Source: a virus. From it: DNA of 26,690 nt. The notes under the pieces are model-generated. The model worked only from the letters and a program-made list of their open reading frames with translations. It was not told the DNA's origin and made no database searches. The position numbers were made by a program, and so were the translations under genes. Positions 10,850 through 24,565 of this stretch are shown one piece after another. The DNA lies in the IMG/VR virus record IMGVR_UViG_3300042294_004463, positions 1 to 26,690 of that record; one strand, given 5' to 3'. Position 1 is the first letter of the stretch. Each line of letters starts with the position of its first letter.

Positions 10850-11827
10850 TTATGCGTAGTTCGTCTTGATCAGCGTTCCGGCACACTCGTTCACCACGTG
10901 CTCTTCGTTATACTGACGAACACGGATCACGTCGCTGCGGCGCGCTTCGTCGCGGAAGCTCTCCACCACATAGTTGAACTCGACGTCCTCGGCCCAGTAG
11001 ATGGTGCGGCCCGCGCCGCCCATCGACGGATCTCCGCCAGCGATCGAACCCATCCAAACATAATCGTCGCCCCAGATGTAGCTGAGTTTGTTGTCAGCCA
11101 CGACCTCGCCTTTCTTCGCGGTCGAGACAACAGCCTCGGCGATGAAAAGGTTGGTGATCGGAGCGCTGTCTTGGAAGGTCGCCAAGAAAACGTCCTTGGT
11201 GATGATTTTTCCACCGGCATTGTCGCCGTAGATGTATTTGCGCAGCTGAGTCGAGCGGCGCAGACGCTTCCAAATGTTGCGGCTCATGATGATCGTGTTG
11301 ACCATCTCCCCGCGTTTCTGGACTCGCGCGATGGCCTCTTCGAAGTCAAGCGGAACGTCAAGCGTGTTGATGTTCGCTTCAGTGTAAGCCACCGATGCAT
11401 CCACCTTGCCCCAGGTTGCCTCGTTCATGACCTTGGCGGCCACGCGCGCTTCTTGAGCGCGGAGGATGTTGGAGAGGAGGAGCTTGGTGCTCACCTGCTC
11501 GGCGTCGAAGAAGCGGGCCAAGTCGTGCTGATCGCTGTCATCGACCACTTCGGTCAAACCGCGATCGCGGCAAGCGTAGCTCGCTTTTTCATAAGTTCTG
11601 TCGACCTCTTTGTAGGCCGTGCGGGGTGCACGCAGCGTCTCGTCGGAGCTGTTGCTCGCCAAGATGTTGCCCGTGCCCTTCTTGATTTTCCTATATTCGC
11701 CAGTTTTGGTGTTGCTCGCGAAAGGAGGGAAAACCATGTCGGCAATGAAAAACTTTTCAGCTTCCAAGGCCTCTTGAACAACCGCCTGGAGTTCCGGGCG
11801 GATTAGTGCGTCAGCATTTGTATACAT
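10850..11827 (-). CDS. Major capsid protein
   Basis: 325 residues starting MYTNADALIRPELQAVVQEA. It has the best Shine-Dalgarno of the window (AAGGAGG, about 9 nt before ATG), as expected for the most abundant product. It follows the prohead protease/scaffold and a small decoration-type gene, and precedes a strong terminator. This is the usual head-gene order of HK97-fold phages, where the capsid protein forms the icosahedral shell. Segments such as VNTIIMSRNIWKRLRR and NYVVESFRDEARRSDVIRV resemble known phage capsid C-terminal regions from memory. No long N-terminal delta domain is present, consistent with a separate scaffold. Confidence 0.85.
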   Translation of the reverse strand: MYTNADALIRPELQAVVQEALEAEKFFIADMVFPPFASNTKTGEYRKIKKGTGNILASNSSDETLRAPRTAYKEVDRTYEKASYACRDRGLTEVVDDSDQHDLARFFDAEQVSTKLLLSNILRAQEARVAAKVMNEATWGKVDASVAYTEANINTLDVPLDFEEAIARVQKRGEMVNTIIMSRNIWKRLRRSTQLRKYIYGDNAGGKIITKDVFLATFQDSAPITNLFIAEAVVSTAKKGEVVADNKLSYIWGDDYVWMGSIAGGDPSMGGAGRTIYWAEDVEFNYVVESFRDEARRSDVIRVRQYNEEHVVNECAGTLIKTNYA

Positions 11828-11845: not shown

Positions 11846-12199
11846 TTAGAGCGGGAAAACTTCGATCGTATCGCCGTCAGCCGAAGCGGCTTGCGCGGCG
11901 ATGCCGTAATCGGTGCCGCCGGTTGCAGCCACCTTGCCGTTGGCCGCACGCTTGACGACGCTGCCGACAGCGACTGCGCTGCCTGCAATGACTTCCAGCG
12001 ATCCGCCACCGTTGGTCAGGTGAACTTTGACCGGAGTTGTGTTGTCGTTGACCTTGAAATCGGTCACGCCGATCTCCTGGTCGCCTTGACCCGCGAGAGT
12101 GATCTTTCCGGTGCTGTCGAGTTTGACTCGCACATTGCCGGCGATTCCGCTGGTCCCGAGTGCGAGGAAACTCGCCTTGCTGTCGTCGATGTATGCCAT
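11846..12199 (-). CDS. Capsid decoration (cement) protein, DUF2190-like
   Basis: 117 residues, beta-rich with many Gly, Ala, Val and Thr. The C-terminal half (SAVAVGSVVKRAANGKVAAT, then GIAAQAASADGDTIEVFPL) has the feel of the DUF2190 capsid-cement family: a sensed value, a GKV turn, a GIA segment and a final V-F/L strand. Such proteins bind the outside of the shell at three-fold axes and stabilise it. The Shine-Dalgarno is AAGGAGC. It lies directly between scaffold/protease and major capsid genes, where decoration genes are usual. The family name is from recognition, not a search. Confidence 0.7.
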   Translation of the reverse strand: MAYIDDSKASFLALGTSGIAGNVRVKLDSTGKITLAGQGDQEIGVTDFKVNDNTTPVKVHLTNGGGSLEVIAGSAVAVGSVVKRAANGKVAATGGTDYGIAAQAASADGDTIEVFPL

Positions 12200-12210
12200 A
12201 AATTTGCTCC

Positions 12211-12957
12211 TTATTTGTCGGCCAGTGTCACGATGCCGCGGGCGGCGTTGTGTTCCGCATACGAGCGGGGATTGCTTTTCATCGTGAAGCGGATGGCTTC
12301 GGCGCGAGCCGCCGCCTTCGCTTTACCCTGCGATTCCAGCTCGGTGGCTTTCGCGCTCACCAAGCGGTCAAACTCAGTCACCTTGTCGTCGCCTTGATCG
12401 GCGGAGAACATGCGGAAAGACTCGGTCCCAGGAGTCGCGGCTTTGATGCCTTGGAGGCGGATGGTCCGCTGAAGGGCTTCGTTCTGCGCGATCAGGGCCG
12501 CCTGCTTCTGCTCAAGCACATCGAACGCATGCATGATCTCGGCGGATTCCTTGTCTTCCTTTTCACCGGCCAGCTTGGCCTCAAGTTCAACCACACGCTT
12601 GCGCAGCGCGGACAGCGCGGCACCGGCAGGTGCGGCAGCTTCAGCGGGAGCCGCTTCGGCTTCGCCAGCCTCGCCTTCCGCTTCGTCGCCTTCACCAGCC
12701 TCGACGGCGGCGTTGTAAGCGGCGATGGCTTCGTTGACTTCGGTGCGGTCAATCCCTTGCGCGGCCAACTCCTCGTCGCTCATCGCGGCAAGCTGCTCCA
12801 GTTCCTCGGCGGAAAGGGGCGTGTTGGCTTCAATAAGGGCGTCGATCTCGGCTTGGCGATTAGCCACAGCGTTGACCGTTTCCTGCACCTGTTGGAGAGC
12901 GGCGATAACGTCAGTCAGCGTCGGCTCTGTTGCTTGGTTGGCTTCTTTTTGGTCCAT
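12211..12957 (-). CDS. Possible nested scaffold protein from an internal start
   Basis: In-frame internal start at Met174 of the protease/scaffold gene would give a 248-residue scaffold without the protease domain. The ATG is preceded 20 nt upstream by AGTTGACA (12978-12985), the motif that marks eight other starts here, and by an A-rich stretch but no Shine-Dalgarno. The split falls exactly between the protease domain and the acidic coiled-coil part. Lambda makes its scaffold Nu3 from an internal start in the protease gene C, which is a direct precedent. Confidence 0.5.
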   Translation of the reverse strand: MDQKEANQATEPTLTDVIAALQQVQETVNAVANRQAEIDALIEANTPLSAEELEQLAAMSDEELAAQGIDRTEVNEAIAAYNAAVEAGEGDEAEGEAGEAEAAPAEAAAPAGAALSALRKRVVELEAKLAGEKEDKESAEIMHAFDVLEQKQAALIAQNEALQRTIRLQGIKAATPGTESFRMFSADQGDDKVTEFDRLVSAKATELESQGKAKAAARAEAIRFTMKSNPRSYAEHNAARGIVTLADK

Positions 12958-13476
12958 AAGGTTTTCTTTTTGCTCGCTGTCAACTAGCGCCGAAAAAAGG
13001 CCCGCTGGATTAGCCGCAGGCATCGGCACGCAATCGACGGCGAGGAGTTCTTCGCAACGCGCCGCGGCTTTGCCGTTTTTGAGCTTTTCTCCCTTGGGAG
13101 GTCCGGCGAATGCCGCGCTCAAGCCGAAGCAGTCGGGCATCCGCTCTGCCCGCTCGATGATCTTGTCGTATTCCTCGTGGGACTTTAAGAGATGCCAATC
13201 GGCGACAACCTTGTTGCCCTCGCGACGAAATCCCTCCAAAAACCCGCAAATGGATTGTAAGGCTTGCGGATCCTTGTGGTTCAGCTTGACCTGGACCCGC
13301 CCCTTGTCGTTACCGCACTCGACAATCTGTTTGAGCGTTTTGTCATCGACCTCCAGATTGTGACCGCGCGCTGTGACGCCGCCGGTAATAACAGCTACGC
13401 CGCGAATAACGCCGCTGTCGCGGTCCACACGACCGCTGATCGTGTTACAGTTGAATTGAATGATCTCTGAGCCCAT
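12211..13476 (-). CDS. Prohead protease fused to scaffold
   Basis: 421 residues in two parts. Residues 1-165 look like a phage prohead serine protease: NH67 in KLNHKDPQAL, then FGLS120AAF, then LAVDCVPMPAANPAGL near 145-160. These match the usual His, Ser and VDxVxxPAxP blocks of the family. Residues 174-421 are acidic, Ala/Glu-rich and coiled-coil-like (ELEQLAAMSDEELAAQ, EAEGEAGEAEAAPAEAAAPA), as in scaffolding proteins that fill the prohead and are then cleaved. An internal ATG (Met174 at 12957) is preceded by the same AGTTGACA motif found at other gene starts, so a separate scaffold may be made from the same frame. Its own start follows AATTGACA by 13 nt. Confidence 0.8.
   Translation of the reverse strand: MGSEIIQFNCNTISGRVDRDSGVIRGVAVITGGVTARGHNLEVDDKTLKQIVECGNDKGRVQVKLNHKDPQALQSICGFLEGFRREGNKVVADWHLLKSHEEYDKIIERAERMPDCFGLSAAFAGPPKGEKLKNGKAAARCEELLAVDCVPMPAANPAGLFSALVDSEQKENLMDQKEANQATEPTLTDVIAALQQVQETVNAVANRQAEIDALIEANTPLSAEELEQLAAMSDEELAAQGIDRTEVNEAIAAYNAAVEAGEGDEAEGEAGEAEAAPAEAAAPAGAALSALRKRVVELEAKLAGEKEDKESAEIMHAFDVLEQKQAALIAQNEALQRTIRLQGIKAATPGTESFRMFSADQGDDKVTEFDRLVSAKATELESQGKAKAAARAEAIRFTMKSNPRSYAEHNAARGIVTLADK
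12978..12985 (-). promoter_or_regulatory. Start-associated motif AGTTGACA inside the protease/scaffold gene
   Basis: 20 nt before the in-frame internal ATG at 12957 (Met174). Confidence 0.6.
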
Positions 13477-13489
13477 GCCCAGAGAGCCG

Positions 13490-13497
13490 TGTCAATT
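13490..13497 (-). promoter_or_regulatory. Start-associated motif AATTGACA
   Basis: 13 nt before the ATG at 13476; begins at the last base of the TAA of the SET gene. Confidence 0.65.
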
Positions 13498-13991
13498 TAG
13501 ACCGTCATGGCCACCATCGGTTGCGATGGCTTGCACCACTTGTTGAAGAATCCCTCTCCGTGGTAGACGCAGATTTCCTCATGAGCTTCGATTAGGCGGG
13601 AGGCCCAGAACACCACCAGCTTGTTCTGGGAAAACACCGCATACTGCGCGTTGGCCGTCTCAGCGCTTTGCGCTGAATTGTAGATCGACCCGAATCCCAG
13701 AAGGAGCATGGCGATATTGTCGTTGCCGTAAGCGTAGCGGCTGATCTGGGGCTCAGCCAAAAACTGGCGTGGCGTATCGCAAGTGATGCAGTGACAGAAC
13801 TCGATGTATTCGTCCTCCGCAATTTCACGGCGGGCAAAGACCCCCAAGCCCTTGCCCGGGGAATGCTTCACATACAAGTTGTCGAGCGAGAAGCCCGTGT
13901 TCGCCAACTGCTCCCACTTGTAAAGCAGGCTCAGCGCACTATCCCCCTGTGGCGTTTTGATCGTCACGCCGCGCCGTTGCTTTTCCGTCAT
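13497..13991 (-). CDS. SET-domain protein, putative lysine methyltransferase
   Basis: 164 residues. SET-type motifs appear in order: SPGKGLGVFARREIAEDEYI (44-63), the SAM-binding entry of the fold; GFGSIYNSAQSANA-like block at 99-114, matching the GxxxxxNHS region with the His replaced; and HEEICVYHGEGFF (137-149), matching the EEL-x-x-x-YG end motif. SET enzymes transfer methyl groups from SAM to protein lysines. No DNA-binding or membrane part is seen. It overlaps the preceding glycine-zipper gene by ATGA and directly precedes the protease/scaffold gene. A virion or host protein substrate is possible. The changed NHS motif may mean altered activity. Confidence 0.75.
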   Translation of the reverse strand: MTEKQRRGVTIKTPQGDSALSLLYKWEQLANTGFSLDNLYVKHSPGKGLGVFARREIAEDEYIEFCHCITCDTPRQFLAEPQISRYAYGNDNIAMLLLGFGSIYNSAQSAETANAQYAVFSQNKLVVFWASRLIEAHEEICVYHGEGFFNKWCKPSQPMVAMTV

Positions 13992-14545
13992 GCTCCAAAA
14001 GCGGCGGATTTAGTCCCCGGCCAAGGGCGCGCACCAGCGAATTTCGGGTTAATCATTCCCCTCTTGAATAATGAAGCGCCTAGTCCAGCGCCCAGTCCGG
14101 CTCCTGCGATACCGCCCGCAGCAGCGCCTAGTCCAGCGCCGGTTCCAGCGCCCTGTTTCATGCCCTGCCAAATACTTTGATCCTTTTTGAATGCGCCCTT
14201 GATAGCCCCCAGCGCGCCTCCTAATACGGCGCCGCCTGCCAGACCCTTGATCAGTCCCGCGCCGCCGAGCACGGCGCCTCCGGCTAGAGCGGCACGGCCA
14301 ACTCCAAGCTCAATTTTAGGCGTCAACGCATTCATTTCTTTCTTACTGGCCATGCCAATCATTTGTTTGAGCCGTTGCGCGATCATCGAGCGGCGCTGGG
14401 CTTTCTCGGCGTCCACGTTCCCGTAAGCCGCCGCCATGGAATTCGGATCCACCCCGCCCGTCTCATTCGCCACATACTGACCCATGTCGTTGCGCGGGCG
14501 CGGATCGACAAACTCGATCATGCTTGGGCGAAGCGCGGAATCCAT
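13988..14545 (-). CDS. Glycine-zipper membrane-active virion candidate
   Basis: 185 residues. The first ~75 are polar and helical. Residues ~80-115 and ~130-163 are long Gly/Ala zippers (GGAVLGGAGLIKGLAGGAVL and GAGTGAGLGAAAGGIAGAGL), of the kind that insert in or pack within membranes. The C-terminus is basic and Pro/Gly-rich. There is no signal peptide. It sits in a set of three consecutive genes with such segments between portal and protease, so an internal head protein ejected with DNA and acting at the host membrane is a fair inference. The start lies one base after the upstream TAA. Confidence 0.7.
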   Translation of the reverse strand: MDSALRPSMIEFVDPRPRNDMGQYVANETGGVDPNSMAAAYGNVDAEKAQRRSMIAQRLKQMIGMASKKEMNALTPKIELGVGRAALAGGAVLGGAGLIKGLAGGAVLGGALGAIKGAFKKDQSIWQGMKQGAGTGAGLGAAAGGIAGAGLGAGLGASLFKRGMINPKFAGARPWPGTKSAAFGA

Positions 14546-14546
14546 G

Positions 14547-15179
14547 TTAGCGATCCAGCTGTTCCGTCAGCTTTACCAAACGATCTTTTGCGGAAAACTT
14601 TAGCCTGCCTGCCGTAAGAATTCGGGCGATGCCGCGGAGACCGCCCATAAGGCCTTCTGACTTGACCATTTTGGGGCCAAGCCGCCCTGCTCTCTTGAAG
14701 CGCCCGGGCATTTCTTGAGCAATCTCTCCAGCGCGAGCAGCATAGCCGCCGACGCGGTCTTGAATTTTTTGACCGATAGCTCCTGCTTGAGAGGCACCTG
14801 CTTCCGCTTTGTTGCGCAGGCTGTTCAGCATAGAGCCATAGGCCTCGCGGCGATTGACCTCGGAAGTAAAGCGAGGACCGTCAGATCCGAACGTGGGACG
14901 CAGAGGAGCTGCGGCCCGGTTGGCAATGGAGCGTGGGCTGCCGGGCTCCATGTCACCGACCGGCAGCAAATTGCGGCGGCCATATTTTCCCATGATGGCG
15001 CGATCCGCTTTAACGGCTCCATACCCCGCGGCTCCAACGCCAACGCCAGCGGCGCCGGTTTTCAGAAGCGAGCCATCTTCTTCCTGATACAAACGACCGT
15101 CAGGGCCACGATAAGTGGCAAAGAGCTTCTCATCAATTTTTGCCTCCAAGGCAACCAGCTTGCTTTTGATCTCGTCCAT
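14547..15179 (-). CDS. Hypothetical virion protein with glycine-rich segment
   Basis: 210 residues. It begins with a likely coiled coil (MDEIKSKLVALEAKIDEKLF), then RGPDGRLYQEEDGSLL, then a Gly/Ala-rich hydrophobic stretch (TGAAGVGVGAAGYGAVKA) near 42-60. The rest is basic and helical (SLRNKAEAGASQAGAIGQKI) and ends with RLKFSAKDRLVKLTEQLDR. Its ending resembles linker stretches in the 1456-residue protein encoded just upstream (for example RFEFAEKKKK), suggesting a shared origin. The start ATG follows the variant motif AGTTGACT by 14 nt, with a weak purine stretch (GAAAGAG) between. No enzymatic motif is seen. Confidence 0.7.
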   Translation of the reverse strand: MDEIKSKLVALEAKIDEKLFATYRGPDGRLYQEEDGSLLKTGAAGVGVGAAGYGAVKADRAIMGKYGRRNLLPVGDMEPGSPRSIANRAAAPLRPTFGSDGPRFTSEVNRREAYGSMLNSLRNKAEAGASQAGAIGQKIQDRVGGYAARAGEIAQEMPGRFKRAGRLGPKMVKSEGLMGGLRGIARILTAGRLKFSAKDRLVKLTEQLDR

Positions 15180-15193
15180 AAATTGCTCTTTCT

Positions 15194-15201
15194 AGTCAAC
15201 T
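15194..15201 (-). promoter_or_regulatory. Start-associated motif, variant AGTTGACT
   Basis: 14 nt before the ATG at 15179; overlaps the TAG stop of the 1456-residue protein gene. Confidence 0.55.
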
Positions 15202-18200
15202 ATGCCGTCGCGGCGGGAAGCAGCGTGGGCTGCCACTCTTTGCTCGGCTTGGGCCGAATGCTACGGTTGCGCCGAACCCTGTTGATCATGCCCATCATGC
15301 GGTTTTTGACTGCACTTACTGCTTTTGCGCGGCCCGCCCCGCCAATGGCCAAGGCGCCTGCGCCAGTGCCAATGGCAGCAACAAGGCCGCCCCCGATAAG
15401 CAAATTGCGCTGGTTCCGCTTGCGCTCATGCCATTTGGATTCTCGCCGGACCCTCCGCTTGCTGTTGGGCGCAAACACTCGGGCGCTGCGGCCGCGTGCA
15501 TCGCGAAGATCCCACCCTTCCATATCTGCATCGTAATAGGAAAACTCCTTGCGGCTGGAAGCTGCCGCTACGCCCGCGCCGCCGACAACGGCCACGGGAG
15601 CCAAGGCAAGGCGCCGCGCATACATTTTTGCCGCGCCCTTTTTATGGGCGGCCAATTGATCGAAATAATCGCGAACATCCTTGTTGCGCGTGCTCGTCGC
15701 TACATGGCGTATGGCCTCTTTTTCATTTTGACCGTAATTGTAGAGTCGGTCTTGTATTTCTTTCTGAGCCGCATCGCGGCGTTTAGCCATCCGGGCGTGA
15801 CCGGACTTGCTTTTGACTCTTTGGCCAACCTCCCAGTCCCAATGGCCAAGAGCTTCTTTTTGACCCGCCCTGAACCTGGCATAATGACTGACCTTGAAAT
15901 CGTCTCCGGCAACGCCCGTTTTGCGCAATACGGCAGCTGTCATTCCGCCTGGCTTTTGCTTCGCCGTTTGCAGAACTTTGCCAATCACTTTTCCATGAAT
16001 GCCGCTGTTAAGAGCGGCCTGCGATGCATCGAGATAGTCAGAAACAAATCGCCCGCCGTTATAGGGGTCGCTTTTCGGCGACTTAAACACTTTTCTTTTT
16101 GCGACGTTGCCGCCATGGCGAATTTGGATTTTTGCCATTTTGTAGGCGGCTGGCAGCATGCTCGCGCCGAGCGCGGCTGTTCCCAGCCCTGCCGCCACGC
16201 CTGCCGCTTTTTTCCAAGTGCTCTTGGGCTTGTCCTCAAAAAGCACGATCGTGTGGTTGAGTCGCGCGCTCATCAGGCCAACGCTCTTCGTTACCGAATC
16301 CCGCATTTTATTCTTCTGATCTACAACGTATTTGGTGGCGCCCTTCACGCTATCGGAGTAACCGCTCACCCATTTGGGGGCGTTTGGCCGCAGGGCGCGG
16401 CGCATGACAAGGCCATGGGCGGCAAGTCCTCCGGTCAGAGCCGCGACGGCGACAGCTTTCTGAAAGTATCCCTTCTCCCATTCTCTCTTTTTGGTCTTCC
16501 TGCCCTGCACAACCTCTGTCACATCTTTCCCGAGGCGAGCGGTGCGGCGCGCTGTGCGGAATCCTTTTTCTGCTTCACGGCGAGCAGAGCTGATAAACGT
16601 AGGAAGTGTGACGGTGGCGGCGCGGCCCTCGCGATCCACCAAGTCTTCGCCGCGCACGTAGTCTTTAAAGCCTGAAGCCCGGCCAGTTCTTTCGTTGCGG
16701 ACCCAAATATCAAAAGCGTGAGTCGGCTGATTAGATGCAAATTTGAATTTGCGGCGCAGCAACGCCAAGGCAGCAATCATATTTTTGCGCTCGCCCCTGC
16801 TGTGCAAAGCGGGATTTCTAATACCCTCTTGCAGATTTTTACCTGTGGAGATCATACGCTCCGAACTCATGAGTGGGGCATGCTCAACCTGACCCACGGC
16901 GCCAGACTTCAGGGTAACTTTGCTGCTGCCAACGGGCACAGACTTGCGACCTTCGGGCAACGAATCTTTGATGATCGGACGAAGGGCGGACGAGCGGTCT
17001 GTTCGCAATTGTCTGCCTGCCCGCATGCGGCCGCGATCGGCGGACTTGCGCATGATAAGTTCCCCGCGCAATTTTGAGCCGAGCGGAAGGCTGATTTGCC
17101 CTCTGCGGGACGTTAAGGTTGCCCGCTCAGCGGCAATGCGGCGGTAGCGGTCTACTTTACTAATGGCTGGCCCATTTTCTCCGAGGCCGCGCTTGCGCAA
17201 AGACTGTTTGGCGAATTCAGACGGCGGGAGCGCCAGCGGGGTGCCGCGAGCCACTTTGCGATCTTTGCCCGTGACGTATTTGCCGAGGACATCGGCGGGG
17301 CGGGCCCCACCGGCAACCGCGGTTTTATACATGGCCTCATTTGCGGCATTGGCTTTTTTGATTGAGCGAATGCCAAGATAAGCGGCCGTGCCGACCGGAA
17401 CCGCGACACCTCCGGCAATAAGGGCGGCGTTGCGCAGCTGACGCTGTTCTTCCGTCAGTTGAAATTCCAACGGCTGCGATTTGTCGGACATCAAATAGTC
17501 TTCGACGAAGTTGCGAAGTTTATTTTTGATGCCACGGTTCCACGAGGGCTGACGCTTGCGCATATCGACAAGCATTGCTTGCTTTGTCGGGTGCTTTACA
17601 TTGTCAACAAGTGGATTGATGATTTCTCCCTTAGGATACGGGAGGCGGATCGGGGGCTTGGCCTTTCCGATGAAGAGCGATTTTTGCAAAGCTCTCCCCG
17701 CAATGCCGAACTCCACAAGTTTTTGCTCGGTGGAACAATTCCACCGCTTCAAAGCGGCTCCCTTTGGCGTCAGCTTGCCATCCTTGCTCGTAGGACCCGG
17801 CATACCTCCCATGCGCGCACAAAAGCTGGCGCGCCGCTTGGCCGACTTGCTACCCGGCTTGAGTTTGCTCGGCTCGGTCGTGACCGGACGCTTGAGGTTG
17901 CTGCCATTTTCTCGGTTGTATTGCTTGCGGTAGCTGTCGTTCAGGCCGCCGGTCTTGGCATGGCGCTTCTTGTTGTAGCCATGAAACGGTTTTTCCAGCT
18001 CAATGGTTTCAGAAGTCGATTGCATCTTTACTTTGTTCTTGAGTTTGCTTTTGATGAACTCTGTCGAGCGTTGAATCCGCTGCTTCATGCAGCTGTTGCA
18101 ACATCCAGCCAGTTCAATGGTGCGGCTAGTTGCCGACATTTTGCGGATGTCTTTGCGAAGATTGCGAATGGTGTCCACCTGTTGTCCTTCATCGGCTCCG

Positions 18201-19570
18201 GTAAATGCGCCATAGCCGCCACCGGCCACTGCACCGACGCCCGTGGCTTTGAGAGAGCCAGATTTGGTTAGCCAATTAGCTGGACGCCATTCATTGGCGA
18301 GACCGGCAATTTTGCGGTTAATTTTGGGAACTCGGCGCATGAGCAGGCCGCCCGCAGCCCCCGCCGCCGTGCCAACGATGGCACCGCCAACCGCAGAACG
18401 GATGGCAAAGGGCGCGCGCTCCTTGGGTTTGGGTTCGCCTACGATTTTGCTTCCTACAATGCTGCCACCGCCAACAACCCCGCCGGTAAACAAGGCTCCC
18501 AGAGCGCCGGTTTTAAGGGCGCCGCCGAGACCTACTCCCCTGCGAAGCAGGGCTAGGCCGCCAAGACCGGCGCCGGATGCAGCACCAGAAAGGCCCGCGG
18601 TTAGATATGGGTTTATCTCCTTCTTTTTCTTTTCGGCAAATTCAAAACGTCCATCCGACATCTTGAACTTCTTACGTAAGATCCTGTAAGCGCCATATCC
18701 AGCTGCCCCTATACCGGCAAGAGCCGGAACGCTTTCGGCCTTTTTGTCTCCTCTCTGACGCTCTCCGTAAGGATCGCGGCGGTGCTTGGTCAACTGTCGA
18801 ATGCCTAAAACGCCAGCAATTCCGGCCGCCGCGCCGAAACCTGCGGCACTGCCCGTCGGCATTGCGCGCAAATAGGCGCGCGCAGGACCTACTTTTGCGC
18901 CGCTTGGAATAAGTTTTCCGGGCCGGTAACTCTTACGTAAGAGTGCGCCTCCGACTGCTCCGGCCACGCCCGCGCGAAGCAAATTGGCATCGCGCCGGTC
19001 CAAGTCCTCATCTCTGATCTTTTTGACCCAACGATCTCTTGGAACCCTGCCGGTCAGTGGAATCCCAGCTTCATATCCAATTGGCAATGGCTCTTGGCGG
19101 CGACTACTCATCTCAAGTCGTCCCCTGTCAATTCGGGCAAACCTGCTTTCTTTGTTCTCCGGCTTGAAGTGCCTCGGCATCTTCATGGCTTTACGCAACG
19201 CTGGGGAACGATCGGGAAAGCGCGGCTCTTGGTAGGCCACGATTTCCACCGGAACCTTAGTGATGCCCTCTTGCTGTGCAGCCACCATGCGATGCCTTCC
19301 CTCATGGCCGGTGACTTTGAAATTCGCCGGATGATTGAATCCGCCGCCGCGCGCGCGGTTTACAAAAAGTTGCGGCGCATCAATCTTTTCCCCTGACCGG
19401 ATAGCCTTTCGGTATTTCTCTACAGCCGGTCCATGCGCGCCTCCTTTCCCAAAAGGCAAAGCCTTTTTCAGAAAGTCAGCGGGAGTCATTGTTGCCGCCT
19501 GCGACTTCCACTTAATGTATTCCCGCGAAATACGAAACTTTCCGGCCAATTCGTGGCGCACCAATTTCAT
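15200..19570 (-). CDS. Giant modular protein, candidate ejected polyvalent-type protein
   Basis: 1456 residues from ATG at 19570 (MKLVRHELAGKF), which overlaps the upstream stop as ATGA; a GTG five codons earlier is possible. Residues ~55-112 resemble a ParB/sulfiredoxin-like domain (AIRSGEKIDAPQL, then GHEGRHRMVAAQQEGITKVPV). About twelve Gly/Ala-rich hydrophobic segments follow, near 198, 240, 281, 322, 348, 391, 441, 713, 1038, 1120, 1321 and 1388. Residues ~526-613 form a basic domain ending SFCARMGGM...ALKRWNC, which I associate with DUF6321 of aquatic viruses. The protein is very basic. Its place between portal and protease is where MuF or ejection proteins are often encoded. Internal MS-starting stretches (154, 304, 478, 694, 1100) suggest a fusion of several units. 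Confidence 0.8.
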   Translation of the reverse strand: MKLVRHELAGKFRISREYIKWKSQAATMTPADFLKKALPFGKGGAHGPAVEKYRKAIRSGEKIDAPQLFVNRARGGGFNHPANFKVTGHEGRHRMVAAQQEGITKVPVEIVAYQEPRFPDRSPALRKAMKMPRHFKPENKESRFARIDRGRLEMSSRRQEPLPIGYEAGIPLTGRVPRDRWVKKIRDEDLDRRDANLLRAGVAGAVGGALLRKSYRPGKLIPSGAKVGPARAYLRAMPTGSAAGFGAAAGIAGVLGIRQLTKHRRDPYGERQRGDKKAESVPALAGIGAAGYGAYRILRKKFKMSDGRFEFAEKKKKEINPYLTAGLSGAASGAGLGGLALLRRGVGLGGALKTGALGALFTGGVVGGGSIVGSKIVGEPKPKERAPFAIRSAVGGAIVGTAAGAAGGLLMRRVPKINRKIAGLANEWRPANWLTKSGSLKATGVGAVAGGGYGAFTGADEGQQVDTIRNLRKDIRKMSATSRTIELAGCCNSCMKQRIQRSTEFIKSKLKNKVKMQSTSETIELEKPFHGYNKKRHAKTGGLNDSYRKQYNRENGSNLKRPVTTEPSKLKPGSKSAKRRASFCARMGGMPGPTSKDGKLTPKGAALKRWNCSTEQKLVEFGIAGRALQKSLFIGKAKPPIRLPYPKGEIINPLVDNVKHPTKQAMLVDMRKRQPSWNRGIKNKLRNFVEDYLMSDKSQPLEFQLTEEQRQLRNAALIAGGVAVPVGTAAYLGIRSIKKANAANEAMYKTAVAGGARPADVLGKYVTGKDRKVARGTPLALPPSEFAKQSLRKRGLGENGPAISKVDRYRRIAAERATLTSRRGQISLPLGSKLRGELIMRKSADRGRMRAGRQLRTDRSSALRPIIKDSLPEGRKSVPVGSSKVTLKSGAVGQVEHAPLMSSERMISTGKNLQEGIRNPALHSRGERKNMIAALALLRRKFKFASNQPTHAFDIWVRNERTGRASGFKDYVRGEDLVDREGRAATVTLPTFISSARREAEKGFRTARRTARLGKDVTEVVQGRKTKKREWEKGYFQKAVAVAALTGGLAAHGLVMRRALRPNAPKWVSGYSDSVKGATKYVVDQKNKMRDSVTKSVGLMSARLNHTIVLFEDKPKSTWKKAAGVAAGLGTAALGASMLPAAYKMAKIQIRHGGNVAKRKVFKSPKSDPYNGGRFVSDYLDASQAALNSGIHGKVIGKVLQTAKQKPGGMTAAVLRKTGVAGDDFKVSHYARFRAGQKEALGHWDWEVGQRVKSKSGHARMAKRRDAAQKEIQDRLYNYGQNEKEAIRHVATSTRNKDVRDYFDQLAAHKKGAAKMYARRLALAPVAVVGGAGVAAASSRKEFSYYDADMEGWDLRDARGRSARVFAPNSKRRVRRESKWHERKRNQRNLLIGGGLVAAIGTGAGALAIGGAGRAKAVSAVKNRMMGMINRVRRNRSIRPKPSKEWQPTLLPAATA
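18670..18681. repeat. Palindrome TCTTACGTAAGA, copy 2
   Basis: Identical 12-mer in the giant gene, coding part of ILRKKF, 8 nt before internal Met304. Confidence 0.6.
18931..18942. repeat. Palindrome TCTTACGTAAGA, copy 3
   Basis: Identical 12-mer in the giant gene, coding part of LLRKSY, 261 bp from copy 2. Confidence 0.6.
19126..19133 (-). promoter_or_regulatory. Start-associated motif AATTGACA inside the giant gene
   Basis: 14 nt before the in-frame internal ATG at 19111 (Met154, MSSRRQEPLPIG). Confidence 0.6.
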
Positions 19571-19746
19571 ACCACTGTCCCCCACCTGTGAATAAACATC
19601 TGCATCCCGTTCCGAAGCTGCTGCAGATCACGGCGGGCAATGGCCAAGTCCATCGTCAGCTTGTCAGCGCGGTCCACGAGGGACCGCAACTCATTCATCG
19701 CCGCCGCTTGCTGTGACGCTTCCGCTGTTTGAATTTCCGCTTCCAT
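19567..19746 (-). CDS. Small helical protein overlapping the portal gene
   Basis: 59 residues starting MEAEIQTAEASQQAAAMNEL. The start ATG at 19746 has a GGAG Shine-Dalgarno about 7 nt upstream and overlaps the portal gene end by 56 nt in another frame. A second ATG at 19698 would overlap the portal stop by only 8 nt and give 43 residues, but has no ribosome site. The protein is predicted as one long helix (LRSLVDRADKLTMDLAIARR). The stop overlaps the next start as ATGA. The role is unknown; a small head or portal-associated protein is possible. Confidence 0.55.
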   Translation of the reverse strand: MEAEIQTAEASQQAAAMNELRSLVDRADKLTMDLAIARRDLQQLRNGMQMFIHRWGTVV

Positions 19747-21427
19747 TAGTTTGCTCCACTTTGGGGCGCTTTTCCGGCACAAGGGCTTCGGCCTTGGTGC
19801 GCGGGACGCCGTAAACGAAGACCAGGCTTTGGATCGCGCTTTCGCGCTCCAGCTTGCCTTCGGCATAGGCCGTCAGCACTTCGATGAGTTGCGCGGCGGG
19901 CTTCTCGCCGACCTTGGCAATGTAGCCCTTGGGCGCTGGCGGGGGCGGGGCGGGCGGCATGTTGATGGCCGCCAGCATCTGGGTCGCATTGCTGAGCGAC
20001 GGCGAGATGAGTTCGATTGGCACGGCGCTCTGGGCCGCAACTTCCTGAAGCTCTTTGACTTCGCGAGCCAAGGTGCGGCTGATTTCCAAGCTGCTGCTGC
20101 CGTCGATCTCCTCGACAATCTTGCCGCGCGTGATCAGGCCGTTCTGCAAAAGGAGCAGTTGTTCTTGAACATAGTTGCCGGTATCGCCGGTCAAGCGGGC
20201 GCCGAAGTTCCAGCTACCCTGCTGCCAATCGGGATGCCACGGAACCGCGCCCATGGCGATGCCGCGCTCGATCACGATGTCGCGCAGCCGATTGAGCACC
20301 TTGTCCACCATGAGCTGCTGGTAAGTCGCGATGGCGCGCATGGCCTGCATGACTTCGATGCGGGCGGTCACGCCGCCAAGCTGGGCCATGTCGTAAACAA
20401 ACCCGTAGGGCAAGTTCATGCCCAAGGCGATTTCCCTGACGAGAATCTGGACAAACTGCATGAGGTTGGCAGAAGGACGGCCCGTGCTGCCGGGGAACGT
20501 AATGTCTTCGCCTTCCTGAAGCCGCTTGATCATTCCGGCCTCGACTCGCATCGAATTGGTTGAGCCCGATCCGTCTTTCTTCGTCAGCCAATCCAGACCG
20601 GAGCCGGTCGGAACGCTGTCCTTGCGGCGAATAAAGCCCGCAAACGCCGCCGCGAATTTCATGGCCTGCTTCTCAAAGCCAAAAAGTTCGTGAATGTCCC
20701 GCGCGTGCGGAAGGGCGCAGCTCATCCAACTCTCGCCGTGATATTGGTCGGCGCGGATGGGACGGAAAAGGTGCAGGAAGGAATCCGGCCCGATCTCCAT
20801 CTCCAAGTTGTATTGGCCCATGCGGGATCGCTTGTAGATCTCGTAACCCACCACCCTTCCGTATTCGTCGATCTTGATGCCCTGGATATTGGACTCGTCG
20901 GAATTAATCCGGTCGGGGCCGCCGATCCGGTCGGCTTCGATGGGCTGGAGGCGCAATTCGTCGCCGTCAGGAACAAGAATCCAGCCATACTCGCCATCCC
21001 TCACCATGCCGCGAAAACCGAGCTGAAGAAGCTCCACCAAGCGGAAGCGTCCGGTTAGATCCGCTCGTCCGCACCAATCGTGGAAGTAGTCTTGATAGGC
21101 CGCATCCATCTCCGTGTCTCCCGTGCGGCTTTGGTAAGTAATTGACCCGCAAGTATATTGCACCAGCTTGTCGAGCAGGCCGCGCACAAACGGAAACTTC
21201 TCCTCCATGTCCCGTGCCTCCCAAACGCGGTCAATCCGCTGCCGGTTGCGGCGAGCGGATTCGGAGGCGGCGTGACGGCTGCGGCCACCGCTGTAACCCC
21301 GCTGCTCGGCCTTCCAATCCCCGCGCTCAAATTCGGTCAGCCAGTAGCGAGCCGTTAAACGACGAACAGCCGCCTCAGGTGAGACGGCGGCCAGTGCTTT
21401 GTCGAAAAATGTGATTTTTTGCTCCAC
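19691..21427 (-). CDS. Portal protein, lambda gpB-like
   Basis: 578 residues from GTG at 21427, which directly follows the TAA of the gpW-like gene. Blocks typical of lambda-family portals are present: an Arg-rich N-terminal RNRQRIDRVWEARD (about 60-73), a LLDKLVQYTCG segment, and HLFRPIRADQYHGESWMSCA near 220-240 with the usual H-x-F-x-P-x-R-x-x-Q pattern. A long helical part follows, and a Pro-rich then Ser/Gly-rich tail (NGSGNSNSGSVTASGGDE). The portal is the dodecameric ring through which DNA enters and leaves the head. The gpW-like gene before it repeats the lambda W-B order. Confidence 0.9.
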   Translation of the reverse strand: MEQKITFFDKALAAVSPEAAVRRLTARYWLTEFERGDWKAEQRGYSGGRSRHAASESARRNRQRIDRVWEARDMEEKFPFVRGLLDKLVQYTCGSITYQSRTGDTEMDAAYQDYFHDWCGRADLTGRFRLVELLQLGFRGMVRDGEYGWILVPDGDELRLQPIEADRIGGPDRINSDESNIQGIKIDEYGRVVGYEIYKRSRMGQYNLEMEIGPDSFLHLFRPIRADQYHGESWMSCALPHARDIHELFGFEKQAMKFAAAFAGFIRRKDSVPTGSGLDWLTKKDGSGSTNSMRVEAGMIKRLQEGEDITFPGSTGRPSANLMQFVQILVREIALGMNLPYGFVYDMAQLGGVTARIEVMQAMRAIATYQQLMVDKVLNRLRDIVIERGIAMGAVPWHPDWQQGSWNFGARLTGDTGNYVQEQLLLLQNGLITRGKIVEEIDGSSSLEISRTLAREVKELQEVAAQSAVPIELISPSLSNATQMLAAINMPPAPPPPAPKGYIAKVGEKPAAQLIEVLTAYAEGKLERESAIQSLVFVYGVPRTKAEALVPEKRPKVEQTNGSGNSNSGSVTASGGDE

Positions 21428-21694: not shown

Positions 21695-22048
21695 CGGACG
21701 ATGGCGTTCTTTTTTCACTTTGACGGCTTTTTCCAAATGCAGCTTATGCTTTTTATCCTTCGTTATGTAATCCAGATCCCAACTCAGCATTTCCAAATAA
21801 GAGGCCGAAAAGAACTGTGCTTGCGCTCGATCCAAGGTCCACATGGGCATTGTGGCTGTTGCCAAGGCAATCCCCGCCTCTTTGTAGCCCAGCCCTGCGT
21901 TGATAAAGTCATGGATTGTCAATCCGCACCTCGTTGTGCCCGCGAAGTATTTGCGCTGTTTCCGCCACTTCCAATAGATGTGGTAGCCCGCGCGAACGGA
22001 TTTTGCCCCGTGGTGAATTTCTTCGCTCGAATTTAGTATTTCGCCCAT
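21689..22048 (-). CDS. Hypothetical protein between FkbM-like and gpW-like genes
   Basis: 119 residues from ATG at 22048 (MGEILNSSEEIHHGAKSVR), overlapping the end of the methyltransferase gene by 16 nt. A longer open stretch upstream lies wholly within that gene and is rejected. No domain is recognised. The protein is aromatic-rich in the first third (GYHIYWKWRKQRKYF) and ends in a basic tail (KKHKLHLEKAVKVKKERHRP). In lambda-like order this slot would hold the terminase, but at this size it is not a large terminase. A small DNA-binding or packaging role is possible but unsupported. Confidence 0.65.
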   Translation of the reverse strand: MGEILNSSEEIHHGAKSVRAGYHIYWKWRKQRKYFAGTTRCGLTIHDFINAGLGYKEAGIALATATMPMWTLDRAQAQFFSASYLEMLSWDLDYITKDKKHKLHLEKAVKVKKERHRPN

Positions 22049-22632
22049 AAAATATCGCTGACATCCTCGCCCAAAATCTCGTAGCCGCAAGAATGAAGGC
22101 TGTCGCAAATTTCCTGATAGAACGGGTTGCGCCATCCGGTGTGGGTAAAGTGCATCTCCAGCCGGATCAGCTTTGGCTCCGTCCGCATGTCGCGGATGAC
22201 AAACCATTCGGCGCCTTCGGTATCCACGCAAAGCACATCAAGCTGGTGCTTTTCCAAGCTCCACCAAGGATAGCTGGTCACTGTCCGCACAAACTGCGGA
22301 TCGAAGCTGTCGCGATTCATGGCCGAATGTTTGTGGTGCTCATCCGGCGCTTGGCCTTTGGGAACGTCTTCGATCCAGCTCCCCTCGCCACGGTCGTAGA
22401 GTTTGACCTCGCCTCTGGTCGCTCCTACCACGCCTTCAACAACCTTGGCGGTCGGAAATGCTTCGCGCAAGCGGGCGCAGCACCAAGGCAGCGGTTCGAC
22501 CAAGATGCCTTCCACGCCCTTGCGCAGCCACGGCGCTACGGAGCATTTCTCCGGTTCATTGACTCCTACTTCAGCGACCAAGCGCGGCTGGCCGCCCCAG
22601 ATTCGACGATAGATGGTTTCGAGTGCAAACAT
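22033..22632 (-). CDS. FkbM-like SAM-dependent methyltransferase
   Basis: 199 residues. RLVAEVGVNEPEK (17-29) is the SAM-binding motif I of a Rossmann methyltransferase, E46 in GILVEPLP is the expected acidic residue after strand 2, and LDVLCVDTEGAEW (131-143) is the DxEGxE block typical of the FkbM family. FkbM enzymes often methylate sugar hydroxyls on glycans. A GT9 glycosyltransferase in the same operon supports glycan modification of the host surface or virion. There is no signal or membrane segment. The ATG at 22632 has no clear Shine-Dalgarno; a short inverted repeat (22646-22670) lies just upstream. Confidence in the family is high, in the substrate low. Confidence 0.8.
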   Translation of the reverse strand: MFALETIYRRIWGGQPRLVAEVGVNEPEKCSVAPWLRKGVEGILVEPLPWCCARLREAFPTAKVVEGVVGATRGEVKLYDRGEGSWIEDVPKGQAPDEHHKHSAMNRDSFDPQFVRTVTSYPWWSLEKHQLDVLCVDTEGAEWFVIRDMRTEPKLIRLEMHFTHTGWRNPFYQEICDSLHSCGYEILGEDVSDILWAKY

Positions 22633-22730
22633 AAGTAGTTGGCGGGTTCCGTTTTATGCGGTTACGGAACAAGGGATATGAATGACCAGTGAAAGTGAAC
22701 ACACCGCCGCATTCCTTGTTGCCGCCAAAG

Positions 22731-22883
22731 TCATAATTTGATCGTTACCCACCACAGCCCCGCTTGGGCAAAACTGTAGCCAAACCAGATCATGGCCTGT
22801 GGGATTTTGCCGTTGATGGCCTGCTCGACGCCGATCACCGCGTAAGCAAGGCCCGTGAGAGCTATAAGGATCGCGCTAGTCAT
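22731..22883 (-). CDS. Small two-helix membrane protein
   Basis: 50 residues starting MTSAILIALTGLAYAVIGVE. Two hydrophobic segments, about 3-19 and 29-48 (AMIWFGYSFAQAGLWWVTIK), are separated by a short polar turn (EQAINGK), giving a likely hairpin in the inner membrane. The ATG overlaps the end of the lipoprotein gene (its TAG lies inside the first codons), a coupling typical of this operon. Function is unknown; a holin-like or exclusion role is possible but no lysin is nearby. Confidence 0.65.
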   Translation of the reverse strand: MTSAILIALTGLAYAVIGVEQAINGKIPQAMIWFGYSFAQAGLWWVTIKL

Positions 22884-23115
22884 GCCATTCGGTCAAAATC
22901 GGCCGGTAGCTGCGGGTTAAGAAGTCCCACTCCATACCTTCCGGCGCCGTCCATTCCCGGTATTTGTCCACCGCGTTCTGCCAAGAAAACTCCAGAGGCT
23001 TGTTCCACTCCTCGGCGGGAGGAAAGTTCCACGGCGCGGTGTCGCGCCAAATTGGATGGGCGCAACCCGCATAACCGGCGGCAAGCAGTCCTACGGCTAT
23101 CCATCGAGCGGCCAT
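22876..23115 (-). CDS. Small lipoprotein
   Basis: 79 residues from ATG at 23115. MAARWIAVGLLAAGYAGC is a lipoprotein signal: a basic residue at 4, a hydrophobic core, and a lipobox YAGC with Cys18. The mature part is about 61 residues, Trp- and Pro-rich (HPIWRDTAPWNFPPAEEW). It would be anchored to a membrane by lipid on Cys18. A start further upstream is rejected because it would put the signal inside the protein. The gene overlaps both neighbours. Possible roles are superinfection exclusion or an outer spanin, but no lysin or inner spanin is seen here. Confidence 0.7.
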   Translation of the reverse strand: MAARWIAVGLLAAGYAGCAHPIWRDTAPWNFPPAEEWNKPLEFSWQNAVDKYREWTAPEGMEWDFLTRSYRPILTEWHD

Positions 23116-23444
23116 TTTTCCTCCAGTTTGTTTTTCAACTCTTGGATCTTTGCCAAGGGCCACATCCCCCATTCGGCCTCTTGCCAGTTCCAAAATGGAA
23201 CAACCCCAAGATCGTTAGCCGCTTTGCGCATCGAGATGTCGCGGGCGTGACGCGCTTTGAACAACTCGCGGCCGGCAAGAACCTGCTTAGCCTGGTCGCC
23301 AAAGAGATGCCCCTGCCCTTCGCAGCGGTCGCAGCATCGCTCTGGCATGACAAATGCCGCGTCCTCGTTGTCCTGATCGGAAGGAAAACCAAACTGAGCG
23401 TGAATCACGCCCATGCCCTCGCAATTAGGACACATCGCATTCAT
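23097..23444 (-). CDS. CxxCxG zinc-finger protein, DnaJ-like repeats
   Basis: 115 residues. Two CxxCxGxG-type knuckles, CPNCEGMG (5-12) and CDRCEGQG (38-45), are like those of the DnaJ zinc-binding region and should bind one zinc together. After them comes a helical part with ISMRKAANDLGVVPFWNWQE (70-89), which could be a helix-turn-helix. The start ATG overlaps the GT9 stop as ATGA. No J domain is present. Small proteins of this kind are common in phages and of unknown function; binding of protein or nucleic acid is likely. Confidence 0.7.
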   Translation of the reverse strand: MNAMCPNCEGMGVIHAQFGFPSDQDNEDAAFVMPERCCDRCEGQGHLFGDQAKQVLAGRELFKARHARDISMRKAANDLGVVPFWNWQEAEWGMWPLAKIQELKNKLEEKWPLDG

Positions 23445-24565
23445 AGCTCGTAAGGCAAAGTTGTGGGCGGCACCTCATCCCCAGATGAGATGCCGCCCGC
23501 GCTGCCAGAAGCCACTTGACCCCCCCGAGTCCGTTTCTCCTCCAGCAGTCGCATAGTTTCGCGCACGATGCGTTCCGGCTCGATTGTCGCCAGCGCTTCG
23601 CATTTCCCCGTCTGCGCGCAAGGCCCGTGCGCCGGGTAAGCCGAGCCGCGTCCATGCCAATAGCAAGGCGCGCACTTAAGATTGCCACTCAAGGCACGGA
23701 TGGACGGCGCATAAGCCGTGCGCGCTTTCCAAGGAAATGGCGCATACAAAGCAACAGTCGGCAGGCCCAGCGCACCGGCCACATGGCACATGGCCGAATC
23801 CGGCGCGAGGACAACATCGCAATCAGCCAATACCGCGCAGGATTGCCCGAACGTCTTGGCGGCGGCGGCGATGTTGTAGACACTGGGATTGACGTCGGTC
23901 AGTTCTACGCTGCCGGGACTTCCAAAGATCGCGATTTCCACATTATGCATGAGCAGACCCAGCAGGGCTTTGTGCATAAGTTCGTGCGGATACGTGCGCG
24001 TCGGCGCGGAGGCCATGAGCTGCACGCCTACCCGTGGCTTGCGATTGCGGGGAAAGTTCTCCTTGGCCCACTGCATATCGGCAGGGCGAACGGAGTAAAG
24101 AAGCTCTTTGCTGACCAGTTCCACGCCAGCTCGCTCCGCGATCAGGTCCACGGCGTGTCGCTCTGGTTCCGGCGCAAACTCAATGACCCCCTCCAGCCAA
24201 ACATGGTAGCCGTAGGGCATCACTTGGCCCATCCGCATCGGATATGGAATGTAACCTATTTGCGGAAAAGCCGAGAGGGCATCAGCGTAATTGCGATGGC
24301 AGCAAACGGTGACTTTGCTGCCCAAAGCGAGAAACGCCTTGATCGTCGGCGTCATAAATAGAATGTCACCGAAGCCGCCGCTGCGAGTGATCAGAACATC
24401 CTTGCTGGACGGATCACTCTGAATCTCGACATCCGTGACCTTGCCTGCCACCCCCATCATCAGCAGATGCGCCAGAGTCGGATCTTCCAAAAGATACCGC
24501 TCGCCAGCCTTGAATTCCAGCCCGTGACCGGCGTAATCCTTGAGAACTTCAGTTTGCCGTGCCAT
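23441..24565 (-). CDS. Glycosyltransferase family 9 (heptosyltransferase-like)
   Basis: 374 residues. ITRSGGFGDILFMTPTIKAF (59-78) is the N-terminal GDxLxxTP signature of GT9 enzymes, and APDSAMCHVAGALGLPTVAL (254-273) is the C-terminal nucleotide-sugar-binding block. A four-Cys cluster (LKCAPCYWHGRG...HGPCAQTGKC, 297-322) matches the cysteine-rich loop near the end of many heptosyltransferases. About 50 residues precede the fold (YAGHGLEFKAGERYLLEDPT), an extra N-terminal extension. There is no signal or membrane segment. The gene has a good Shine-Dalgarno (AAAGGAGA). It likely alters a host surface glycan or phage structure, together with the FkbM-like gene downstream. Confidence 0.85.
   Translation of the reverse strand: MARQTEVLKDYAGHGLEFKAGERYLLEDPTLAHLLMMGVAGKVTDVEIQSDPSSKDVLITRSGGFGDILFMTPTIKAFLALGSKVTVCCHRNYADALSAFPQIGYIPYPMRMGQVMPYGYHVWLEGVIEFAPEPERHAVDLIAERAGVELVSKELLYSVRPADMQWAKENFPRNRKPRVGVQLMASAPTRTYPHELMHKALLGLLMHNVEIAIFGSPGSVELTDVNPSVYNIAAAAKTFGQSCAVLADCDVVLAPDSAMCHVAGALGLPTVALYAPFPWKARTAYAPSIRALSGNLKCAPCYWHGRGSAYPAHGPCAQTGKCEALATIEPERIVRETMRLLEEKRTRGGQVASGSAGGISSGDEVPPTTLPYEL

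Follow-up and report, generated by a model that had tools for sequence, protein, structure and literature searches.

In the stretch of viral DNA that we analyzed (the window, an IMG/VR record of 26,690 bases), the head operon encodes a 1456-residue protein (15200–19570, minus strand) whose translation and module comparisons resolve it into modules in the order N-B-C-S-E-F-H-K-Y-Z, with tags of ~10–16 residues between modules. The explanation that we favor, and regard as probable if only just, is that this protein is a string of cargo packaged in the head, in which the tags mark sites of loading, and probably of cutting, and from which the modules then leave with the DNA. The tags, which are the most informative feature of the protein, had been overlooked in the initial annotation.

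The open reading frame runs from an ATG at 19570 to a stop at 15200, and an alternative GTG start at 19585 would lengthen the protein by 5 amino acids; two longer records, 68.5 and 35.4 kb in length, represent the same phage. With 9.5% lysine and 10.3% arginine, a net charge (K+R−D−E) of +172 and a pI of 10.9, and with the genes that flank it, the product is indeed the 1456-residue basic protein between portal and protease that had been described. The order on the minus strand is the portal gene (19691–21427; lambda family, PF05136, 7.6e-47), the giant protein, a 210-amino-acid protein (14547–15179) with a tag-like N terminus, KSKLVALEAKIDEKLF, and a tag-like C terminus, KFSAKDRLVKLTEQLDR, a 185-amino-acid glycine-zipper protein (13988–14545) with a tag-like N terminus, MDSALRPSMIEF, a SET-domain protein, a prohead protease fused to a coiled scaffold (12211–13476), a decoration or cement-like protein (11846–12199; a weak assignment, with phrog_673 at 3e-7 and PF09956 slightly below its cut-off) and the major capsid protein (10850–11827; phrog_1005). 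Both small proteins after the giant gene had been annotated as glycine-zipper products; each is basic, but Gly and Ala together make up 38% of the 185-residue protein and only 28% of the 210-residue one.

Three other features of this region were recorded. The SET-domain protein (lysine methyltransferase family; 13497–13991, minus strand; PF00856, 5.1e-6) is encoded next to very lysine-rich proteins and, among the loci examined, was confined to this phage and one near relative (L019/L032); that it methylates cargo is a guess. A tape measure protein with a glycine-zipper segment lies at 4445–7075 (minus strand; phrog_594, with PF13441 sub-threshold). Upstream of the portal gene, at 22033–24565 (minus strand), are genes that by eye resemble FkbM-type methyltransferases and heptosyltransferase-like glycosyltransferases, and similar sugar-gene clusters adjoin the portal gene in L005–L009 and L012/L013.

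Searches with the portal, capsid and protease as queries returned 8, then 13, 10 and 48 IMG/VR loci (overlapping sets) as well as three loci in MAGs, and yielded ~40 relatives of the giant protein in uncultivated phages, a modular head-operon family spanning 232–1956 amino acids. A location between portal and protease was seen in relatives too. Between the window and L005 the portal (75%) and capsid (76%) are well conserved, whereas the giant protein is poorly conserved (~40%, with insertions). The best portal matches in cultured phages, among the matches listed, were at ~26%. No family with this architecture had been known to the initial annotation, and here the annotation was right in part: a family exists, and no cultured phage matches its protease or its Z module.

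We searched 40 operons with segments taken from the window protein (ten) and from its relatives (four) and detected Z in 35, K in 23, B and C in 22 each, DUF6321 in 8, Y and the ART-like module A in 6 each, the zincin-like module X in 4 and inorganic pyrophosphatase (InPase) in 2, all of which are lower bounds because diverged copies escape single-sequence phmmer and some contigs are truncated. The order of modules varies as well, being B-E-C-K-Z in L012, C-B-K-Z in L009 and K-A-Z in L063. In L012 and L013 DUF6321 separates B from C, in L014 Z precedes K and in L028 Y follows Z. L047, L051, L052 and L060 carry Y on another gene, and L056 has a gene for A by itself. By this comparison, the family has gained, lost and rearranged modules and has divided some of them among separate genes.

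Some of the accessory modules have recognizable kin. InPase was found in L069 (1.7e-43) and L042 (7.5e-45), and PHROGs of DarB-like, minor head and virion structural proteins include it as well. By eye, module A resembles ART (FRGT, AxxYA), with no support from Pfam, NCBIfam or PDB. In the window protein itself, HMM searches recognized no polyvalent domain (InPase, ART, MPTase or DdrB-ParB), and there was no Pfam or PHROG match to MuF. A further accessory module (HEYVAVVP...GKNSNSYARTL) is shared by L058 (6007–8490) and L072 (5146–7542), and L058 also has an IDGRHR segment resembling the GHEGRHR segment of the window; neither the module nor the segment has a Pfam match.

One of the MAG loci, L029, lies on a 250-kb Verrucomicrobiales contig (C4). 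This locus is most likely an integrated prophage, because an integrase-like gene is found at ~205.8 kb and the genes outside roughly 205–235 kb look bacterial (gene identities by eye). It carries a minimal K-Z protein of 286 amino acids, which suggests that K-Z is the core of the family and that Verrucomicrobiota are hosts.

Within the window protein, module N (residues 1–146; 19133–19570) was found in this phage only, with no relatives in IMG/VR outside it. Its GHEGRHR motif, which had been called ParB-like, is present, but the resemblance to ParB or sulfiredoxin is by eye only: profile searches of the segment gave no match in Pfam, NCBIfam or PDB, and ParB_N (PF02195) had no match in the window record at E≤10 in a search in which 11 of 14 controls were positive. 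A single-sequence AlphaFold model of the segment (pLDDT 44.5) was uninformative on a ParB/Srx fold, and no profile search supports a ParB identity. Module B (residues 164–302; 18665–19081) contains GIPLTG...DEDLDRRDAN and a Gly/Ala segment, and module C (315–476; 18143–18628) contains Gly/Ala-rich membrane-like segments. The Cys-rich basic domain that had been noticed is real and corresponds to module E (538–610; 17741–17959), a copy of Pfam DUF6321 (PF19846, 2.4e-13; 51 bits against a cut-off of 28.5), which is the only significant library match of the whole protein apart from several PHROGs without an assigned function that match the same residues. Module K (950–1098; 16277–16723) is marked by KKREWEKGYF and a Gly/Ala segment, module Y (1114–1338, SHYARF; 15557–16231) sits between K and Z, and the basic module Z (1345–1456; 15203–15538) combines WDLRDARGRSARVFAP with a Gly/Ala segment.

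The earlier count of about twelve Gly/Ala-rich membrane-like segments was roughly right, since ten 19-residue segments have a Kyte-Doolittle mean of at least 1.2 and every one is Gly/Ala-rich. They are distributed over modules B, C, H, K, Y and Z. Shuffled versions of the protein gave a mean of 2.3 such segments and a maximum of 8. This excess, together with the glycine-rich neighbors and the precedent that T7 ejection proteins refold into membranes (PMC8954989), could mean that the Gly/Ala segments of the giant protein and its two neighbors form a trans-envelope DNA channel after ejection, in the style of T7 gp14–gp16. We think such a channel improbable: no Pfam or PHROG homology to the ejection proteins of T7 (gp14, gp15, gp16) or P22 (gp7, gp16, gp20) was found, module C, which is the richest in these segments, went undetected in numerous relatives, Z being the one nearly universal module, and the tape measure gene points to a long tail. 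A membrane passage may nonetheless be compatible with the cargo-string explanation.

The nine tags of the window protein, which we listed by comparison with relatives, are RLEMSSRRQEPLPIGYEA (residues 151–168; 19067–19120), FKMSDGRFEFAEK (302–314; 18629–18667), RKMSATSRTIELAG (476–489; 18104–18145), VKMQSTSETIELEK (514–527; 17990–18031), NCSTEQKLVEFGI (611–623; 17702–17740), YLMSDKSQPLEFQL (692–705; 17456–17497), FKFASNQPTHAFDI (942–955; 16706–16747), GLMSARLNHTIVLFED (1098–1113; 16232–16279) and SSRKEFSYYDADMEG (1338–1352; 15515–15559), all on the minus strand. At the position of the second, a ~90-amino-acid module is inserted exactly in L006, L007 and L008. In the window's own clade the tags are degenerate. 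More distant relatives repeat a clearer tag, as in L048 (the same sequence as L047), with five copies of LSAKLRLREL or near variants, and L015, with six copies of LSAKLRGLKEF and similar sequences; the tags of L071, L063 and L066 are FQTPASGLIDF, FATPAQRMGLIEL and FSTPASSVFHF. Such phage-specific tags (SAKLRLREL, TPAxxxxIxFD) are repeated within a phage at junctions that are not homologous to one another. Codons differ among the copies of one tag, so that near-identical peptides point to selection on the protein.

Three tests bear on these assignments. The definition of the tags was partly post hoc, and because the patterns were chosen after the sequences had been viewed, the resulting numbers overstate certainty. 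In the first test, 152 homology breakpoints were placed along the window protein without reference to tags, and 49% of them fell within 8 amino acids of the nine tags, zones that cover 19% of the protein (circular shift, P = 0.011; de-duplicated bins, P = 0.003). For the second, which is the least exposed of the three to post hoc choice, the tag at each phage's Z junction was scanned against every operon after Z sites had been removed, and it scored better in its own phage than in the others (mean rank 0.27, 28 phages), as it did once near relatives were removed (n = 21, mean rank 0.30, KS P = 0.002); individually, the ranks of L005, L007 and L013, the phages nearest the window, were not significant. 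In the third, scanning of whole contigs placed tag patterns in cargo genes in five of five cases for L048, six of six for L015 and four of five for the window phage, whose pattern, M[SQ]x(3-6)[IVLF]E[FL], had a mean of 0.015 matches in shuffled sequence. Judged by these scans, the tags are nearly confined to the head operon.

More generic patterns were less useful. A PhixE[FL] regular expression was enriched in L015 and L016 and more weakly in L005, L008 and L014, and generic expressions had no or barely any enrichment in the window, which is why we relied on homology breakpoints and own-phage tests. At breakpoints overall the generic expression was in small excess (7.6% versus 3.7%), small because BLAST alignments also stop within modules of weak conservation. 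Unsupervised motif finding by expectation maximization on single operons returned low-complexity or spurious motifs and was abandoned.

Sequences located at homology breakpoints might simply be neutral hinges or linkers left by recombination during module exchange, with no partner that recognizes them. We consider this very unlikely, given that near-identical peptides are written in different codons and that module A bears the tag of whichever phage hosts it. That module ends in PLGDIQKK(N/Q)FS or a close variant in L007, L008, L013, L038, L063 and L056, and what follows is TPAQRMGVISFD in L063, ALKEF in L038, AKLRIRALCAKLRLVEF in L056, MHEF in L008 and RID in L007 and L013; by this comparison, the tag belongs to the phage rather than to the module. 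Also against neutrality, tags of this kind stand at the start of small proteins with genes of their own. In L052 the stand-alone Y begins with MIDRLKELAAFTGRLIEFSK, from a Met that lies 17 residues into the program-called ORF, and small neighbors in L069 and L057 open with MNALSRLRELSAKTTSTVKEFG and MNPIQRLVELSARCTTKEFSG, as the 185-residue protein does with its own tag-like start, some of these starts being internal Met codons of the program-called ORFs.

A candidate for the recognizing partner is the protease-scaffold gene of the same operon. His67 and Ser120 of the protease are invariant across 27 relatives, and its AlphaFold model (pLDDT 82.7) retrieved T4 gp21 (5jbl) as the top PDB fold in Foldseek (E = 3e-4, probability 1.00, TM 0.53), followed by herpesvirus assemblins. 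We set aside an HK97-type S78 identity, as Peptidase S78 (PF04586) had no match to the protease at E≤10 and an hhalign comparison with HK97 gp4 was not significant. Profile searches by sequence did not identify the protease; the identity of the protease accordingly rests on the invariant His and Ser and on the model, by which it is predicted to fold like T4 gp21. The scaffold part of the same gene holds RMFSADQGDDKVTEF, a sequence that resembles the tags ([FLM]S...[TH]EF[ED]).

The known systems with which these features invite comparison are of several kinds: head cargo, targeting tags, gp21-like proteases, polyvalent domains and DUF6321 are each known. In T4, a ten-residue N-terminal CTS brings proteins into the head, and gp21 removes it (PMC9026906). 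The window operon resembles that of T4 IPI–III and Alt in making putative cargo with the head, in the tag-like N termini of stand-alone proteins, in a protease with a predicted gp21 fold within the operon and in propeptide logic; it differs in that T4 has one N-terminal tag per protein, whereas here tags lie between up to ten modules, vary among phages and lack a fixed L/I-X-E. Several head proteins of SPN3US and phiKZ are likewise trimmed by one gp21-like protease with multiple propeptide cuts, and SPN3US ejection-protein propeptides are cut at several sites (PMC10052503), but those proteins come from separate genes, with an A-X-E site and N-terminal propeptides and no cassette string. Polyvalent proteins with genes close to the portal are probably taken into the virion and injected (Iyer et al., 2017, PMC5512222). 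Like P1 DarB and DdrB, the window protein is large, multidomain and encoded near the portal, among the head genes of a terminase-portal phage, and its family has variable accessory slots, with InPase in two relatives; unlike theirs, its modules have repeated tags between them and stand among Gly/Ala membrane-like modules. DUF6321, for which we found no paper in the open-access literature, is the same domain in cyanophages and pelagiphages (Eistla gp45 in the head region, a 'structural protein' of S-B43), where it is stand-alone or C-terminal, whereas in the window it is an internal cassette flanked by tags. A limited search of the open-access literature found no multi-cassette chain with lineage-specific repeated tags.

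These precedents also frame a reading in which the tags are loading signals only, bound by scaffold at multiple points, and the chain is packaged and ejected uncut and full-length. P1 DarB (251 kDa) is packaged through an N-terminal signal, of which the first 30 residues are sufficient (PMC9024508), N4 vRNAP is packaged unprocessed (PMC5512222), and the tags have no uniform cleavage residue: many fit hydrophobic-X-E (LRE, LKE, LVE), but others (VFHF, VISF) lack Glu, and no strict common signature such as the T4 L/I-X-E was found among them. We nonetheless judge this reading rather unlikely. A single tag per chain would do for loading, as one N-terminal tag does for P1 and T4 cargo, yet tags stand at most junctions and modules are exchanged there; repeated junction tags are hard to explain by loading alone, which favors loading plus cutting, followed by ejection.

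The protein is very basic and Gly-rich, and its place in the virion is predicted from sequence, so it could instead be a core or scaffold component that is lost as the head matures, or a membrane or lysis protein made late. Its location in the portal–protease interval and its ties through InPase and DUF6321 to head or virion proteins leave little to recommend such a role. Several lines support a head-internal, probably ejected protein set: the position between portal and protease, the gp21-like protease, InPase in two relatives and DUF6321 in the Eistla head operon. To that extent the earlier proposal of an ejected set that forms a membrane passage or protects the incoming genome is partly supported.

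We infer packaging, recognition by the scaffold/protease, cleavage, ejection and action on membranes or DNA from these comparisons, and they would combine in the cargo-string explanation as follows. The giant protein would be a string of head-internal cargo modules, and in each phage lineage the product of the operon's own scaffold/protease gene would recognize the tags, both within the chain and at the N termini of small proteins encoded alongside. During prohead assembly the tags would load the chain into the head, after which the gp21-like protease would probably cut at or near them, freeing separate basic, DNA-bound and membrane-active pieces that would exit with the DNA and enter the host. 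More tentatively, and with rather less than even confidence, we suggest that the protein is a head polyprotein, one ORF amounting to up to about ten ejected proteins, with a lineage-specific code for cleavage and targeting that the gp21-like protease-scaffold reads. We know of no established head polyprotein in a tailed phage.

If the polyprotein reading is true, cassettes (ART-like, InPase, DUF6321, zincin-like and membrane) would be swappable once they had acquired the local tag. If the cargo-string explanation is right, the loading of head cargo can run as a string of tagged cassettes rather than one protein per tag, and a tag code that differs among lineages would supply many natural pairs of tag and partner for comparison. 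The selection and trimming of head-internal proteins would then become directly testable, and unannotated ejected proteins could be found by means of a phage's own tag beside its protease gene.
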